Assembly: GCA_027492915.1 (NCBI GenBank)
Contig: JAPUDW010000308.1
Location: forward strand, 1-53,369
DNA length: 53,369 bases
Reading direction: 5' to 3'
Source of the DNA: Bacteroidota bacterium
Lineage (GTDB): Bacteria > Chloroflexota > Anaerolineae > Aggregatilineales > Phototrophicaceae
This document shows positions 7,075-13,439 of the stretch, piece after piece. Every line of letters begins with the position of its first letter. Within the stretch, counting starts at the first letter, position 1. A program made the translations under genes and the position numbers. The notes beneath the pieces were generated by a model. The model had not been told where the DNA came from. It ran no database searches and saw only the letters and a program-made list of their open reading frames with translations.

Positions 7075-7885
7075 AGGCTGCCTGCTCCCTCACAACACTG
7101 CGCCGCAGGAGACGCATAACGATTAGAACAAGGATGGCAGTAACGCCAAGTAAAAGCGACATACTGTACGCACCGACATTGTTACGGTCGTTCAACGCAC
7201 GAAACACGAACATGGTTGCTGTTTCGGTTTGACCTTCGATACCGCCGCCCACCACCGACACCGCGCCAAACTCGCCCAACGCCCGTGCCAGCGTCAGCAC
7301 CACGCCGTACATAATCCCCGGCCAGATGTTTGGCAGCACGATACGCCGGAAGGTCAGCCATTGGCTCGCGCCCATCGTATACGCGGCTTGCTCCGGTTCG
7401 GTATCCAGTGTGGCGAGAACGGGGCCGACCTCACGGGTGACGAACGGCAGCGATACGAATGTTTTGGCTAACAAAATCCCCGGCAGTGCGAACACAATGG
7501 GGATGACAGTCGGGGTTAGCCAGCCATTGCGCCCGAACAGCACGATCAACGTGTATCCGGCGATAACCGGCGAGAATACAAAGGGTATATCGACCAGAAT
7601 GTTGAGAAAGCGCCGCCCGCGAAAACGCTGACGGGTCAGCACCCACGCGATGATGATGCCGAACACGGTATTGAGCAGTACTGCGCCCAGCGTCAACACG
7701 AAGGTGACTTGCAGGGCGTGAACAACGTTCGGCTCGCTCAAGCTGGTGATGACCGGCTCGAAGCCGTTTTCCAGTGCGCGCTGCACAATGCTGATAATCG
7801 GTGCAATCAGCAGCACGGCGACATACAACAAGGCGATACCTAAGATCACAAAATGGAGTGGTTTGTGCGGTCTAATTTCACGCAT
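7055..7885 (-). CDS. cysW: Sulfate ABC transporter permease CysW
   Basis: A 276-residue inner-membrane permease with about six hydrophobic segments. The EAA loop that contacts CysA reads EQAAYTMGASQWLTFRRI, followed by LPNIWPGI. The ALGEFGAVSVVGGG segment is typical of CysW/CysT. I place the start at the ATG at 7885 (MREIRPHK), which overlaps the cysT stop codon by 8 nt; the in-frame ATG 24 bases upstream would give a longer overlap and an atypical N-terminus. It forms the channel as a heterodimer with CysT. Confidence 0.93.
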   Translation of the reverse strand: MREIRPHKPLHFVILGIALLYVAVLLIAPIISIVQRALENGFEPVITSLSEPNVVHALQVTFVLTLGAVLLNTVFGIIIAWVLTRQRFRGRRFLNILVDIPFVFSPVIAGYTLIVLFGRNGWLTPTVIPIVFALPGILLAKTFVSLPFVTREVGPVLATLDTEPEQAAYTMGASQWLTFRRIVLPNIWPGIMYGVVLTLARALGEFGAVSVVGGGIEGQTETATMFVFRALNDRNNVGAYSMSLLLGVTAILVLIVMRLLRRSVVREQAAYVNHTG

Positions 7886-8726
7886 GGCGACGCGACTCCA
7901 CCAGATCAACCGTCAGGGTAATAACGAAGGCAATGACCAGCAGCACAACCGACACGGCGCTCGCCGCTTGCATGTTCCCCGACTCGACCTGTGTATACAA
8001 ATACACGGTGGCAACCTGTGGGCGCTGCGCCACCACGATAATCGCACCGAACTCGCCCAGCGCACGGGCGAAACTGAGCAAGCCGCCGGTCACCACCGCC
8101 GGACGGATGGCCGGAAATATCACACGGCGAAAGGTATACCAATCCGAAGCCCCCAGCGTTTGCGCGGCTTCCTGTTGATTCGATTCCAGCGTCAGCAGCA
8201 CCGGCTGTACGGCACGAATGACAAACGGGTAACCGACAAACAGCAGCGCCAGCACGATACCGGGCGGCGCAAACAACAGTTTGAAACCCAATTGATTTTG
8301 GAAGAAGCCGCCTATCGCCGTTTGCGGCCCGTAAAGCAGCACCAGCATGACACCCGTAACGAGCGTGGGAATGGCAAAGGGCAGATCAACCAGCGTGTTT
8401 AAGATGTCTTTGCCGGGGAAGCGGTAGCCCACCAGCACATAAGCGGTGAGTGTCCCCATAATGACATTGATGACCGTCATCACGGCGGCTGTCCATACGG
8501 TTAGCCAGATGGCGTTCAAGGCGGCGGGTCGAGATAAGTCGGCAAGGAAGGTATCCAAACCGGAACGAAAGCCCTCGACATTCACCACCACCACCGGAAC
8601 GGCGACGAAAGCGAGCAAGTATATGACAGCCGAAAAACGCAGCAGCCATTTGCCCCATGCAGGGCGGGTACGGCGAGCCGCGCGACTGAAATCAGTACGA
8701 CTATTCAAGGGTAAAGATGTCATCAT
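7878..8726 (-). CDS. cysT: Sulfate ABC transporter permease CysT
   Basis: A 282-residue permease, partner of CysW. It has a positively charged N-terminus (SRAARRTRPAWGKW), about six membrane helices, and the EAA loop QEEAAQTLGASDWYTFRRV with FPAIRPAVV. ALGEFGAIIVVA matches the CysT/CysW signature. The start is one of two adjacent ATG codons (8726, 8723), both just after AAGGG; an upstream in-frame TTG at 8750 has no ribosome site. A strong hairpin separates it from the binding-protein gene upstream. Confidence 0.93.
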   Translation of the reverse strand: MMTSLPLNSRTDFSRAARRTRPAWGKWLLRFSAVIYLLAFVAVPVVVVNVEGFRSGLDTFLADLSRPAALNAIWLTVWTAAVMTVINVIMGTLTAYVLVGYRFPGKDILNTLVDLPFAIPTLVTGVMLVLLYGPQTAIGGFFQNQLGFKLLFAPPGIVLALLFVGYPFVIRAVQPVLLTLESNQQEAAQTLGASDWYTFRRVIFPAIRPAVVTGGLLSFARALGEFGAIIVVAQRPQVATVYLYTQVESGNMQAASAVSVVLLVIAFVITLTVDLVESRRHA

Positions 8727-8824
8727 GCCCTTAAGTTTATTGCAGGTCAAATCTAAGGTAGAGGGGTGGCCTATTTCATGACATTTGTCACCGAAATTCG
8801 ACCCCGAAATAGGTTGCTACGATT

Positions 8825-8866: not shown

Positions 8867-9946
8867 TTAGCCGCGAATGCTGGTGATGATCGCCGTGATC
8901 GTGCCTTCGTCACCAAAGAAGGCTTTACGGGCGGCTGCCCAGCCATCAAATTCCTCAATGGTGAATTGATCGGCAACCGGCGGGTAAACCAGCGGCACGG
9001 GGCTGGAGCTTGTTTCCGGCGGGGTTCCATCTTCAACATTAACATTATAAGCAGCCGCAACTTCCTCGTTCACCGGGCGGAAACCATGTTCAGCGAAGAT
9101 CGTTTGGGCTTCGGGCGACCACAAGAAGTCGATGAATGCCTGGGCAACTTCACGCGTACCGTGCTTGTCGACATACACATCCACGAGGGCTACGGGGTTT
9201 TCAATGAGCAGGGTTGATGACGGGTACACGATGTCGTATTCGCCGTTCTTTTGCAAACCCGCGTAAACTTCATTTTCGTAAGTAATGGCAACGTCGCCCA
9301 CACCGCGTTCGAAAGTCAAGAAGCTCTCGCGTCCGTCTTTGTCGAAGGCAGCAATGTTGGTGACGAGCTTGGTGAGGAACGCTTCTGCACCTACGTCAGT
9401 GGCTTCAAAACCTTCGACGTTACCACGACGAGCTGCGCCATAGGCACCAAGAATGTTCCACTGTGCGCCGCCGCTGGTCGCAGGGTCAGGGGTGATAATC
9501 TCCACGCCATCCGTTGCTAAATCCACCCAGTCGGTGATGCTCTTGGGGTTGCCGGGGCGAACCGCCAGCACGACCAGCGAATCGGTCACAATACCTTTAG
9601 CGGCATTATCTTTCCAGTCGTGGGTGATAAGTCCTGCATCCACGAGGCGGGTGACATCCGGCTCGATGGACAAACCAACGATGTCGGCCTCAAAGCCGCC
9701 CGCCACAGCACGCGACTGCGAACCAGAAGCAGCGTAGCTTTCGAGGATATTGACCTGCTGCTTGGTTTCTGCCAACCACTTGGCTTGGAAGGCCGGAATG
9801 ATGTCGCCATAGGCTTCACGCGGGACGGCGTACCCGACGAGTGTGAGGGTGATGGGCGCGGGTGCGTCCTGCGCGGCGACCGGCGCGATAACGGCGCCGA
9901 TAGACAGTGCCATCAAAATGGCTGCGTTACGAATAGTACGTTTCAT
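8867..9946 (-). CDS. sbp: Sulfate-binding periplasmic protein
   Basis: A 359-residue precursor with a signal peptide (MKRTIRNAAILMALS...VAAQ) and no lipobox cysteine. The mature protein has the sulfate-binding family pattern: LTLVGYAVPREAY, ESYAASGSQSRAV, FEADIVGLSIEPDV, RPGNPKSITDW, PDPATSGGAQWN and DVAITYENEVY. It captures sulfate outside the membrane and delivers it to CysT/CysW/CysA. I chose the ATG at 9946, preceded by AAGGAG with a 10-nt spacer; longer in-frame starts break the signal peptide. The gene lies 63 bp after a cysteine-rich leader frame that may control it. Confidence 0.95.
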   Translation of the reverse strand: MKRTIRNAAILMALSIGAVIAPVAAQDAPAPITLTLVGYAVPREAYGDIIPAFQAKWLAETKQQVNILESYAASGSQSRAVAGGFEADIVGLSIEPDVTRLVDAGLITHDWKDNAAKGIVTDSLVVLAVRPGNPKSITDWVDLATDGVEIITPDPATSGGAQWNILGAYGAARRGNVEGFEATDVGAEAFLTKLVTNIAAFDKDGRESFLTFERGVGDVAITYENEVYAGLQKNGEYDIVYPSSTLLIENPVALVDVYVDKHGTREVAQAFIDFLWSPEAQTIFAEHGFRPVNEEVAAAYNVNVEDGTPPETSSSPVPLVYPPVADQFTIEEFDGWAAARKAFFGDEGTITAIITSIRG

Positions 9947-10009
9947 GCTCGATATGCTCCTTAAACTCGGTACCAAATCAGACGATTGAATAGTGAATGG
10001 ACAGATGAA

Positions 10010-10128: not shown

Positions 10129-11310
10129 TTACTGTTGTATACCGCGCATCAGTACGCGGCTGACTTCGGGGCGGGTAAATTCTTCTGGCAGCAGTTCGCC
10201 GCGCGAGAGTTTTTCGCGCACCTGCGTACCACTAAGAACAACGTGTTCGCTCTTATCGTGTGGGCAGGTTTTGAGGCTGACCACCTGACCGCAAGCCTTG
10301 CAATAGAAGGTGTGCTCGAAAAACAGCGGCGTGATGCCCAGTTCTTCCGGCGTGAATTCGTCAAAGATGTAGTGGGCGTCGTAGCTGCCATAGTAGCTGC
10401 CCACACCGGCATGGTCACGCCCAACAATAAAATGGGTGCAGCCGTAGTTCTTGCGTGCCATCGCATGGAAAATGGCTTCACGCGGGCCAGCGTAGCGCAT
10501 CGCGGCGGGGAATACCCCCAGCAGCACTCGCGAGGCCGGATAGTACGACGAAAGAATCGCCTGATAGCTTTCCACACGCACAGCGGCGGGAATGTCATCC
10601 GACTTGGTTTCGCCCACCAGCGGGTGAAGCAGCAAACCGTCGACAATTTCCAACGCGGTTTTTTGGATGTATTCGTGGGCGCGGTGGATGGGGTTGCGGG
10701 TTTGGAAGCCGACGATGCGCCGCCAGCCGCGTTCGGCGAAGATCGCACGGGTTTGCAGGGGCGTATAGCGCAGTTCGGCAAACTCGGATTGGGCACGTAA
10801 CGGAAGGTCGATGACATCCACCGAACCCGCCAGCAGCACCTCGCCCTGCTTATACAAACGGGCGACACCGGGGTGCTTTTCCTCGGTGGTTCGGTAAACA
10901 TTTTGCGCCTCAACCTCACGGTCGTAAGTGTATTTCTCGGTCACGTCGAGGATCGCCAGCAGCCGTTCACTGCTGTCTGTTGGTTCGACTAATGCGACCG
11001 CCTGCCCGACCTGAATACCGGCGCCAAGTTCAGCACTAATCGCCAGCGTTACCGGAATAGTCCACGGCAGCCCATTGGAGAGGCGCATATTATGGACGAC
11101 CGAGGTGTAATCCGCCTGCCCCATAAAACCCGTCAGTGGGCTAAGCGCACCAATGGCGATCATTTCGAGATCCGCCACATTCAGGTCGCTCAGGATAATG
11201 CGTACCAGACCGTTAGCGCGTTCGATGGCTGTTTGCCGCGCATCCCCCGTCAGTTGGCGGTTGATGAGCGTGCCACCGTGGGCGGCGATCTGCGGGAATA
11301 CTTTGGTCAT
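10129..11310 (-). CDS. sat: Sulfate adenylyltransferase (ATP sulfurylase)
   Basis: A 393-residue enzyme that makes adenylyl sulfate (APS) and pyrophosphate from ATP and sulfate, the first step of assimilation. Motifs: the [12 protein letters not shown] loop carries the two catalytic HxxH histidines and Arg; [15 protein letters not shown] and [11 protein letters not shown] follow. Near the C-terminus FYCKACGQ...CPHDKSEH looks like a zinc-binding site, as in dissimilatory-type and thermophile Sat proteins. It is the monofunctional Sat type rather than CysDN. Its ATG overlaps the cysC stop codon by 4 nt (ATGA), so translation is coupled. Confidence 0.97.
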
Positions 11311-11861
11311 GAGGCTGCTTCCACTTCCAGTACAGGGATTAAGGCATGTTGTTCGAGATAAGCGACGATTTTACCTACACTTTGTTCGATGCTTTCTTGA
11401 TCGGTACGCAGCGTAATTTCGGGGTTTTCCGGTGCTTCATACGGGTCATTCACACCCGTAAAACCCTTGAGTTCGCCCGACATCGCTTTGGCGTATAAGC
11501 CCTTCACATCGCGCGAGGCGCATACTTCCAGCGGTGCGTTCACATACACTTCAATGAAGTTGGTGGTGTTCTTGCGAACGCCATCCCGCGCTTCACGGTA
11601 GGGCGAAATAAATGAGGCGACCACGCCGACACGGTTGCGCGACAGCAGTTTAGCAACGAAGCTCACGCGCTCGATATTCTTATCGCGGTCTTCCTTGCTA
11701 AAGCCGAGATCGCGTGTCAAGCCTTCACGTACCGTATCGCCGTCCAGCCGCTCGATCAGCAAGCCACGGTTGTGCAGTTCTTTTTCCAGCGCCACCGCGA
11801 CGGTGGTTTTGCCAGCACCGGAAAGGCCGGTCAGCCAGAGTGTAAAGCCTTGTTGTGTCAC
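11307..11861 (-). CDS. cysC: Adenylyl-sulfate (APS) kinase
   Basis: A 184-residue kinase that phosphorylates APS to PAPS. The P-loop is GLSGAGKTT (residues 12-20); [26 protein letters not shown] and [10 protein letters not shown] are characteristic APS-binding segments; [23 protein letters not shown] is the lid. The start codon is GTG (ACTGTGACACAA), with AGAGGAG about 10 nt upstream. It overlaps sat by 4 nt. PAPS is not needed by the APS-type CysH in this operon, so CysC either feeds sulfotransferases or is a remnant of such a function. Confidence 0.96.
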
Positions 11862-11958: not shown

Positions 11959-12174
11959 TTACGCCGCAGCGTGCCTATCTTTAAATTTGAAACGGGTATT
12001 TGTGCGTTCTTCTAGAGCGATATTAATGAGCTGTTCAACGGTCGTTGGCTGACGCACTGTACCCTTGGGTAGATTATCGATCACAATCTCGGTGAACGAA
12101 GTTCCCGCTGTTTTTGGAATATGCAGATAATACAAAACATCATTATCAGTCAAATTGTAGCGCGGAACACCCAT
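11959..12174 (-). pseudogene. Truncated sulfotransferase-like fragment
   Basis: A 71-codon frame starting MGVPRYNLTDNDVLYYLHIPKTAGTSF in two parts. IPKTAGTS is the 5'-phosphosulfate (PAPS) binding loop that opens family-2 sulfotransferases, which are normally 200-300 residues. Here the similarity fades after about residue 55 and the frame ends in KDRHAAA; the 3'-phosphate binding motif and the catalytic part are missing. I read it as the 5' remnant of a sulfotransferase gene. It sits between cysH and cysC, next to the enzyme that makes PAPS, which fits an original role as the PAPS consumer. The ATG has only a distant GGAG. Confidence 0.6.
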
Positions 12175-12355: not shown

Positions 12356-13066
12356 TCATCCACGATCCAGCGTCGCGATGTGAATACCACACTCGGTTTT
12401 TTGATGCCCTGCCCAGCGTCCAGCACGTTTATCCTGCTCGCCCGGTGCAACCGCTTTCGTGCAGGGGTAGCAGCCAATCGTCGGGTAATTCTGGTCATGC
12501 AGCGTATTGTAGGGCAGGTCATGGGCATGGATATACATCCACACCATTTCCTCTGTCCACGTTGCCAGCGGCGAGATTTTCACATTCCCCCGTTTTGCAT
12601 CCCAACTGACGATGGGTGTCGTTTTGCGACCGGATGATTGGTCACGGCGTAACCCGGTCACCCATGCGCTGTAGCCACCAAGCGCTTTATCGAGCGGCGC
12701 GGTTTTGCGCATTCCGCAGCAGAGATCCGGTTGGTGTGACCAGAGTGCTGCGCCATAGGCTTCCGTTTGCTGTTCGACACTCAATTCAGGCCGAACGCGA
12801 ATCAGCTTTAGCCCCAAACGCGCTTCTACTTCGTCGATCAGGTTATGAGTCTCAGGAAACAGCAGCCCTGTATCCAATGTCAGGATGGTCGTGTCTGGCG
12901 CAACCTCGCTCAACATGTGCAGCGTAACAATACCGGTGGGCTGAAAACTGGTCACTACCGCCAAGCCCTCGCCGTAGCGTTGGGCAGCCCAACGCAGGAT
13001 GTCCGGCGGGTAGGTATTTTCGAACTGCACATTTAAAGTATCAAGGTCGGTTGTTTGCTGGCTCAT
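12356..13066 (-). CDS. cysH: Adenylyl-sulfate reductase (assimilatory, [4Fe-4S] type)
   Basis: A 236-residue thioredoxin-dependent reductase that converts activated sulfate to sulfite. PP-loop type residues are in VVTSFQPTG. The cluster cysteines are C116-C117 (LCCGMRK) and C199/C202 (GCYPC), and the catalytic cysteine is C226 in ECGIH near the C-terminus. The CC...CxxC set marks the APS-reducing class rather than the PAPS-only class without cluster. Start chosen at the ATG preceded by AGGA with 5-nt spacing; ATG and TTG codons 6 and 15 nt upstream are worse. It is the first structural gene after the leader region with two cysteine-rich frames and two terminators. Confidence 0.96.
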   Translation of the reverse strand: MSQQTTDLDTLNVQFENTYPPDILRWAAQRYGEGLAVVTSFQPTGIVTLHMLSEVAPDTTILTLDTGLLFPETHNLIDEVEARLGLKLIRVRPELSVEQQTEAYGAALWSHQPDLCCGMRKTAPLDKALGGYSAWVTGLRRDQSSGRKTTPIVSWDAKRGNVKISPLATWTEEMVWMYIHAHDLPYNTLHDQNYPTIGCYPCTKAVAPGEQDKRAGRWAGHQKTECGIHIATLDRG

Positions 13067-13080
13067 GTTCATCCTAAGCA

Positions 13081-13111
13081 ATAAAAAAGCCCCGGAAATT
13101 GTCCGAGGCTT
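13081..13111 (-). terminator. Attenuator terminator T2 before cysH
   Basis: Minus-strand AAGCCTCGG and CCGGGGCTT pair (9 bp, one G-U) around ACAATTT and are followed by TTTTTT. It ends 14 nt before the cysH ATG, so read-through is needed to express the operon. Its 5' arm AAGCCT can instead pair with AGGTTT at 13126-13131, just after the L2 stop codon, and its CGGAC (13101-13105) with GTCCG inside L2 (13150-13154). Confidence 0.85.
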
Positions 13112-13134
13112 GCTTCGCTGGCTGAAAACCTGCT

Positions 13135-13212
13135 TTACGCGCGCCGAAACGGACTTACTGATTCAGTAGTCTTATGACACAGACAACAACACATCAAACA
13201 GTTCAGGTGCAT
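13135..13212 (-). CDS. Cysteine-rich leader peptide L2 (upstream of cysH)
   Basis: A 25-codon frame starting MHLNCLMCCCLC and ending SPFRRA. Cys is at positions 5, 8, 9, 10 and 12, all TGT. The ATG at 13212 has AGGA 8 nt upstream; an in-frame ATG at 13194 is also possible and keeps four Cys codons. The stop codon lies 24 nt before the T2 hairpin, with the candidate antiterminator AGGTTT directly after it. A ribosome that finishes the frame would cover that segment and let T2 form; one stalled at the Cys run would leave it free. The block ATGTGTTGT...CTGTGT is shared with L1, so the two units look like a duplication. Confidence 0.8.
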   Translation of the reverse strand: MHLNCLMCCCLCHKTTESVSPFRRA

Positions 13213-13235
13213 CACCAATATCCTATAACAGCGAC

Positions 13236-13267
13236 AAATAAAAAACCCAGCGTTGTAAGCCGGGTTT
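13236..13267 (-). terminator. Attenuator terminator T1
   Basis: Minus-strand AAACCCGGC and GCTGGGTTT pair (9 bp, one G-U) around TTACAAC, followed by TTTTTTATTT. It lies 26 nt after the L1 stop codon. The segment CGGGTTGTAGC inside L1 (13311-13321) is complementary both to AACCCG of the left arm (13261-13266) and to GCTTACAAC of arm and loop (13252-13260, one bulge), so it is a candidate antiterminator. Confidence 0.88.
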
Positions 13268-13292
13268 CGTGTCATTCATTCGCAGTTGGCGC

Positions 13293-13373
13293 TTAGAAAC
13301 ACAAAGCCGTGCTACAACCCGTGGTCGTAACCATGTTACACAGACAACACATTGGACAATACATTGTTGACAT
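13293..13373 (-). CDS. Cysteine-rich leader peptide L1 (first in the cysH leader)
   Basis: A 26-codon frame starting MSTMYCPMCCLCNM and ending STALCF. Cys is at positions 6, 9, 10, 12, 20 and 25, all TGT, six of 26 residues. In-frame ATG codons at 13364 and 13352 are alternative starts that keep the CC-L-C run. No clear Shine-Dalgarno is visible, and the ATG at 13373 lies about 30 nt from the predicted transcription start. Codons 18-21 hold the segment that can pair with terminator T1. The downstream terminator, the Cys run and the pairing segment together make the classical arrangement for ribosome stalling on charged tRNA-Cys shortage. Translation is inferred, not shown. Confidence 0.75.
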   Translation of the reverse strand: MSTMYCPMCCLCNMVTTTGCSTALCF

Positions 13374-13409
13374 GGACTTTGTTTCTACCAAATTTCACAA
13401 GCTGGTAGG

Positions 13410-13439
13410 ATTATAGGCATCATCCACGGGAAATGTCAA
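13410..13439 (-). promoter_or_regulatory. Consensus sigma-70 promoter for the cysH-sat-cysA operon
   Basis: On the minus strand TTGACA (13434-13439) and TATAAT (13410-13415) are both perfect consensus hexamers with an 18-bp spacer. The cobA stop codon TGA is part of the -35 box. The predicted start is near 13402, giving a leader of about 335 nt before the cysH ATG that contains L1, T1, L2 and T2. A consensus promoter with downstream attenuators implies that control is exerted mainly after initiation. Confidence 0.85.

Follow-up and report, generated by a model that had tools for sequence, protein, structure and literature searches.

The window, by which we mean the whole stretch of 53,369 nucleotides that was analysed, comes from a 6.9 Mb genome assembly comprising 445 contigs and carries a group of sulfate assimilation genes on its minus strand. 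The gene cysH, encoding phosphoadenylyl-sulfate (PAPS) reductase, occupies positions 12356..13072, with its start at ATG 13072 or 13066 (NF002537, 262.8 bits, cut-off 154; TIGR00434, 237.4 bits, cut-off 165.1; PF01507). Downstream of it, on the same strand, lie cysC for adenylyl-sulfate kinase (11307..11861; NF002059, 260.7 bits, cut-off 244), sat for sulfate adenylyltransferase (10129..11310; NF003166, 549.5 bits, cut-off 387) and genes for the substrate-binding protein (8867..9976; TIGR00971, 218 bits, cut-off 155.5) and the permease (7878..8750; TIGR00969, 252.8 bits, cut-off 240) of a sulfate ABC transporter. In the space separating cysH from cysC lies a frame of 71 codons starting MGVPRYNLTDNDVLYYLHIPKTAGTSF (11959-12174, minus strand) that resembles, by eye, a shortened sulfotransferase-type gene start; in one relative (G004, locus L054), a longer sulfotransferase-like frame sits behind cysH.

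Ahead of cysH, an earlier note on this DNA had proposed the order promoter, L1, T1, L2, T2, cysH, where L1 and L2 are cysteine-rich leader frames and T1 and T2 are terminators; every one of these features was found, all on the minus strand. The sigma-70-like promoter TTGACA-18-TATAAT (13410..13439) is a 12/12 match, and its -35 element overlaps the cobA stop codon. L1, MSTMYCPMCCLCNMVTTTGCSTALCF (13293..13373), has 26 codons, six of them for cysteine and all TGT, with counterparts in the relatives G015, G003 and G004 (that of G004 ends early). Its main cysteine run TGT TGT CTG TGT (13338..13349), read directly from the sequence, is the predicted stall site. Region 1 of this unit, GUUACGACC (13323..13331), pairs with region 2, GGGUUGUAGC (13311..13320), in a 1:2 hairpin of -9.4 kcal/mol; region 2 lies inside L1 and is the predicted antiterminator arm (duplex -14.7, shuffle p 0.045; segment fold -18.8). 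Regions 3 and 4 make up T1, a predicted intrinsic terminator hairpin (13242..13268; -13.7 kcal/mol) with a T-rich tail to 13236.

The second unit repeats this layout. L2, MHLNCLMCCCLCHKTTESVSPFRRA (13135..13212), has 25 codons, of which five encode cysteine and are again all TGT, and it likewise has counterparts in relatives; the predicted stall site is the main run TGT TGT TGT CTG TGT (13177..13191), also evident from the sequence. The 1:2 hairpin GACUACUGAAUCAGUAAGUC (13152..13171) is weaker at -5.2 kcal/mol, so that folding allows a 1:2 hairpin in both units of the window. Region 2, GUCCGUUUCGGC (13143..13154), is the predicted antiterminator arm inside L2 (duplex -12.0, with a shuffle p of 0.145 here and 0.000 in G003 and G004; segment fold -19.2). 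T2, the predicted intrinsic terminator hairpin of regions 3:4 (13087..13111; -15.4 kcal/mol), has a T-rich tail to 13080. Both antiterminator segment energies (-18.8 and -19.2) are whole-segment folds that include other helices.

The start codon of L1 does not lie at the predicted transcript start, because 36 nt separate its ATG from the -10 hexamer (13410 to 13373); no convincing Shine-Dalgarno sequence for L1 was seen by eye. L2 has AGGA 8 nt upstream of its ATG, and we infer its start, since the frame stays open upstream across T1 as far as ATG 13275 (minus strand). A ribosome initiating at ATG 13275 would cover T1; the open extension (13275 to 13213) is also present in G003 and absent in G015.

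Two cysteine-leader-plus-terminator units occurred in 1/2000 dinucleotide shuffles of the region and one unit in 40/2000. When both strands of the window were cut into 360-nt tiles, a single tile (1/590) had two units, namely the cysH leader region. A scan found 13 terminator-like sites, T1 and T2 among them, against 15.9 expected in shuffles; as this is no excess, the case does not rest on that scan. Folding of the whole region was uninformative (z -1.87 on the minus strand versus -1.78 on the other strand), and an Rfam search of the window and eight loci at gathering score, T-box model included, gave no family match.

To place this arrangement among relatives, CysH was located at 90 places (counted by hand) in 85 of the 154 genomes of the window's order, and the upstream DNA was read for 86 of these places. 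A unit was scored where a short frame with three cysteine codons within six codons was followed by a hairpin with a T-run. By this rule, 43 upstream regions have two units, one has three, seven have one and 35 have none; on the reverse strands of the same 86 regions, none has two and four have one. The third unit of locus L112 was judged to be part of the upstream gene and rejected as spurious. A stricter choice of terminators gave 43 tandem and eight single loci; a few T1 assignments under the first rule look wrong, and the terminator caller overlooks the T1 of G024, which has too long a loop and is visible by eye. Tandem cysH loci are spread over eight genera in three families (g1, g4, g9, g17, g19 and g41 in f1, plus a single genus each in f7 and f8), with genus f1g17 contributing 33 of the 51 unit-bearing loci.

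The main check that the earlier note had suggested, namely that relatives should keep the frames, the cysteine codons and the hairpins, thus came out positive in many of them. In G015, G004 and G003 (same genus; 73-80% CysH identity), the promoter, the cysteine runs and both hairpins are kept, and a 12/12 promoter-like site likewise precedes L1. Loss of cysteine frames from retained hairpins, which that note regarded as contrary to its reading, was seen in part only: G001 has one leader with two hairpins, and in G004 a frame change ends L1 early while the cysteine run is retained. Two loci, L007 (G001) and L071 (G014), have a single cysteine leader and, directly behind one another, two terminator hairpins, which looks like the loss of a second leader.

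In the class outside the order, one unit was found in 5/66 upstream regions and two in 0/66 (reverse strands 0/66), the 66 regions being drawn from 104 places listed there (hand count). Several of these regions have cysteine leaders without a detected terminator, for example MCTTSSCCCSCCCS in genus f45g180. Eight of the ten loci of this genus (L143, L148, L150, L153, L154, L156, L158, L159) have very short frames with cysteine runs roughly 300 nt before cysH, and no intrinsic terminator was detected in them; here, control is perhaps Rho-dependent or translational. Four cysH loci were found in named relatives, one of them informative. Among named organisms, CysH is matched best by that of Anaerolineae bacterium isolate ACE_CHL12 (69% identity), whose leader peptide is identical to that of G147, a member of the same order; the window therefore probably belongs to Chloroflexota.

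Between T1 and the cysteine run of L2, no promoter-like site matching at least 10/12 positions was found in any of the 43 tandem loci, so that L2 is predicted to be reachable only via readthrough of T1. Ahead of L1, such a site is present in 17/43 tandem loci, compared with 1.9% of shuffles, and absent from 26/43. Two complete attenuators with no promoter between them are therefore expected to share one transcript, whose continuity is predicted.

Tandem units are not confined to cysH. Among 20 sulfite reductase loci in the 154 genomes of the order, eight are tandem, ten are single and two have no unit, one of these two having no upstream DNA present; the reverse strands gave a single unit in 1/20. 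The sulfite reductase tandems add genera f1g3, f8g28 and f8g55, which brings the number of genera with tandems to 11, those at cysH included. The genome of the window itself has a tandem ahead of its assimilatory sulfite reductase (NF010029, 744.1 bits, cut-off 457), on the minus strand of contig C149 (L312, 4026-4315), with leaders MSTALTCKCMCCLTTTLGIARMCA and MMTAAQNCYPMCCLCCRERLFTHSPLRHV and two terminators. In G031, G018, G081, G066 and G104, the matches to sulfite reductase and cysH share a strand, with cysH following after 38 to 175 nt, and the leader sits at sulfite reductase, which is the likely reason why cysH has no leader of its own in these five genomes.

Searching the window's own genome with two looser patterns (57 and 68 matches; 12 and 19 in the backwards controls), followed by inspection of the loci, yielded five further places. 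Besides the sulfite reductase tandem, these are four single units, one before a rhodanese and a sulfur-transport membrane protein, one before another rhodanese, and two at ABC transporter loci (a branched-chain-type substrate-binding protein with permeases, and an Opp/Dpp-type permease). The exact pattern Met-Cys-Cys-(Leu/Met)-Cys matched 24 times in 17 genomes of the genus, its backwards version 0 times. Twelve of the 24 matches were judged to be leaders with a terminator, cysH accounting for four of these, and the other 12 were rejected by eye, lying inside long genes or having no fitting terminator. Also by eye, L201, L253, L275, L301 and L309 were discarded as leaders owing to a poor hairpin or T-run or the lack of a clear gene after them. 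The genes behind units that belong to the cysteine pathway are those for PAPS reductase, sulfite reductase, and rhodanese plus sulfur transporter. Three members of the genus without a CysH match (G008, G014 and G011; loci L055, L065 and L062) have a cysteine leader with a terminator; two of these units precede a JAMM-like gene (a cysteine-releasing protease type, by eye), and sulfurtransferase-like or O-acetylhomoserine sulfhydrylase-like genes are found nearby.

The cysteine codons of the leaders are strongly biased. All 11 in L1 and L2 are TGT, whereas eleven genes of the window use TGC 21 times and TGT 7 times (TGT 7/28; Fisher p 1.9e-5 versus the leaders). Across the leaders, the TGT:TGC ratio is 140:24 outside f1g17 (window genome included) and 277:119 within it, both totals including extended frames like that upstream of L2. 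A tRNA with the GCA anticodon would decode UGU through wobble, and the bias suggests that synonymous codon choice is part of the sensor.

In order to assess antiterminator formation, the duplex of the sequence behind the cysteine run with the 5' arm and loop of the terminator was compared with 200 dinucleotide shuffles in each of 94 units. The duplex exceeded the shuffles at p<=0.05 in 59/94 units (43/64 within f1g17 and 16/30 outside) and at p<=0.01 in 22/94; in the remaining 35 it was not above shuffles at p 0.05. The folding of terminator against antiterminator, proposed earlier as a check, gave a split answer in the window genome: unit 1 stands out (p 0.045) and unit 2 is no better than shuffles (p 0.145). 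The unit-2 pairing proposed at that time, AGGUUU with AAGCCU (AGGTTT/AAGCCT in the DNA), was replaced as the main antiterminator by GUCCG, inside L2 (13154-13143), with CGGAC of T2, which is favoured because in G003 and G004 it grows to 9 and 8 bp, respectively. The leader frame itself holds half or more of the partner bases in 86/94 units, and the frame together with the 12 nt past its stop does so in 94/94, where they would be wholly or partly covered by a ribosome that has reached the stop codon.

Modelling of the ribosome position gave a corresponding contrast. With a ribosome on the second cysteine of the run, the 5' arm of the terminator is pre-paired upstream with a mean of 0.80, compared with 0.28 for a ribosome at the stop codon; the two states differ by at least 0.3 in 74/94 units, a gap that is in part inflated, as a ribosome at the stop leaves less sequence free. 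For the window, the values are 0.71 versus 0.05 in unit 1 and 0.68 versus 0.37 in unit 2. Shuffled spacers reach 0.57 in the stall state, with 92/94 units above their own shuffled mean and 29/94 at p<=0.05. The equilibrium probability of the terminator falls by at least 0.3 in the stall state in only 16/94 units and is still 0.95 in unit 2 of the window. As the terminator usually still wins at equilibrium, the predicted switch must be co-transcriptional, which is also how the trp attenuator switches.

Covariation was analysed in the f1g17 tandem loci, with 30/31 loci in the unit-1 alignment A1 (L044 left out) and 31/31 in the unit-2 alignment A2. The unit-1 1:2 hairpin shows 15 double-change cells versus 5.6 in shuffles (0/500 as high; 79.8% paired), while its four pairs with double changes are unexceptional (87/500 shuffles as high). 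The unit-2 antiterminator is 95.6% paired and has two pairs with compensatory change (3/500 shuffles as high); the unit-2 hairpin (columns 39-61) reaches 99.5% pairing without exceeding the shuffles. These covariation and count shuffles take no account of relatedness, and f1g17 supplies much of the count. In the same alignments, no compensatory change was found for the unit-1 antiterminator, which is nearly invariant (91.8% paired), or for the terminators, with 98.6% and 98.2% of cells paired.

The suggestion that the two units look duplicated fares differently from genome to genome. Alignment of unit 1 with unit 2 gave z values, against letter shuffles and with the shared cysteine run counting toward z, of 2.7 in the window, 6.8 in its sister G015, 6.2 in G102, 12.0 in G098 and 29.5 in G148. 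The signal is therefore weak in the window genome, where a recent duplication is unsupported, moderate in G015 and G102, and clear in G148 and G098, whose units are by this alignment plain duplicates. On a CysH tree of 46/86 loci, with G024 scored as "two" by eye, the label "two" needs six changes, of which well supported branches force two, and the tree does not settle single versus several tandem origins. Origin by duplication, maintenance and loss have all likely contributed to the history of the tandem.

Judged from its sequence and that of its relatives, the cysH 5' leader very probably comprises two trp-type ribosome-mediated attenuators in series, predicted to sense the charging of tRNA-Cys. 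The trp/his-type reading with cysteine as the sensed residue, put forward in the earlier note, gains support from the layout kept in relatives. We infer leader translation, stalling, termination and the series product as follows. When Cys-tRNA is plentiful, the ribosome would reach the stop codon and cover region 2; the intrinsic terminator would then fold from regions 3:4 and halt RNA polymerase. When Cys-tRNA is scarce, the ribosome would stall on the UGU run and cover region 1, and region 2, consisting of later leader codons, could pair with region 3 (the 5' arm and loop of the terminator) before region 4 is made, allowing the polymerase to read on. With T1 and T2 to be crossed one after the other, the polymerase would reach cysH at a rate of approximately the product of the two readthroughs, and this product may provide a tighter shut-off and a steeper response.

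One could also assume that a single unit regulates and that the other is a decaying duplicate, as duplication of a unit does occur (z 29.5 in G148), relatives manage with one unit in 7/86 cysH regions, and G001 combines one leader with two back-to-back hairpins. We consider this unlikely, since two full units are present in 43 loci of eight genera, their leaders and hairpins varying from genus to genus, the tandem appears again at sulfite reductase (8/20), and both units of the window have intact UGU runs and strong hairpins. The hairpin with a T-run that lies behind the leaders in the order, conserved in position and 98.6% and 98.2% paired in f1g17, makes it quite improbable that the leaders act on translation or via Rho rather than through intrinsic terminators. 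Such control does have parallels: some members of the class, such as f45g180, have cysteine leaders but no detected terminator, actinobacterial cysteine leaders lack conserved terminator hairpins, with Rho suggested (PMC1262725), and PMC13236596 names translation attenuation for the cysteine genes of Mycobacterium smegmatis.

As short frames with conserved cysteine runs, and with some residues past the run conserved in L2 of f1g17 (GYPxLA), L1 and L2 might instead encode functional small cysteine-rich proteins, for metal binding or as a peptide product. This is very improbable: outside the cysteine run there is little peptide likeness between genera, the conserved GYPxLA codons coincide with the antiterminator arm, the L1 of G004 ends early by a frame change and keeps its cysteine run, and a search of NCBIfam with both leader peptides returned no family at E 0.01. 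Two attenuators in series thus remain our preferred reading of the locus.

A biosynthetic operon is normally under a single attenuator, and T-boxes, which also sense amino acids, bind tRNA directly. The polycysteine leader sORFs of mycobacteria (Canestrari 2020) are reportedly leaderless; the leader in the window differs in having a predicted 5' UTR. Leader-peptide attenuation, cysteine leaders and tandem attenuators are each already in print. As in the trp/his-type attenuators outlined in the background of PMC9413887, the window has a leader rich in the regulated amino acid, terminator and antiterminator alternatives and a biosynthetic gene downstream; it differs in being predicted to sense cysteine and in carrying two full units, one behind the other, on a single predicted transcript. 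The mycobacterial work is cited in PMC13236596 and PMC9094748, and PMC1262725 predicts cysteine leaders ahead of cys genes in Actinobacteria. These sORFs share with the window the runs of cysteine codons in a short frame before cys genes, but they lack conserved terminator hairpins (PMC1262725), whereas the window, probably from another phylum, has terminator-like hairpins and a tandem arrangement.

In Rhodobacterales, the uORFC-8-2 motif before cysS is a predicted ribosome-mediated attenuator with cysteine codons and an intrinsic terminator (PMC8632094). That motif is a single element with two cysteine codons, dominated by UGC, whereas the kind found here has longer cysteine runs, is dominated by UGU, precedes cysH and sulfite reductase, and is often tandem. 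The Salmonella mgtCBR operon has two leader frames, each attenuating the one operon; these tandem attenuators respond to two signals (ATP and proline), act additively and use structures unlike intrinsic terminators, and Lee and Groisman describe this two-signal arrangement as singular (PMC3641672). The window, by contrast, is predicted to sense the same amino acid twice, with an intrinsic-terminator-like hairpin in each unit. Double T-boxes in Firmicutes (PMC9413887) are likewise duplicated amino-acid-sensing elements in series, but the window has no Rfam match and its predicted sensor is a translated frame. Further literature on known systems is found in PMC2965389.

The view in the earlier note that poly-cysteine leaders had been described in mycobacteria and not in this kind of organism is too narrow on the first point, given the Rhodobacterales cysS leader (PMC8632094). 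In the open-licence literature, leader-peptide attenuation in Chloroflexota concerned erm, and no description of a cysteine-leader attenuator there was found. Nor did the open-licence literature on tandem leader attenuators and cysteine-codon leader peptides yield a description of a conserved pair in series that answers twice to one signal and has two intrinsic terminators.

The same-signal pair recurs at two genes of the pathway and in 11 genera. We regard it as evenly balanced whether connecting attenuators for one amino acid in series is a device that selection has favoured, by which a whole order near Anaerolineae (Chloroflexota) would run assimilatory sulfate reduction on cysteine pairs, multiplied into a steep, leak-proof switch, kept over deep divergence, rebuilt by duplication and read via wobble-decoded UGU, with RNA attenuation as the main cysteine regulon. 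Since tandem, single and half-lost versions coexist, the question of what doubling an attenuator buys is open to natural comparison. Moreover, the leaders alone mark a predicted cysteine regulon in little-studied bacteria.
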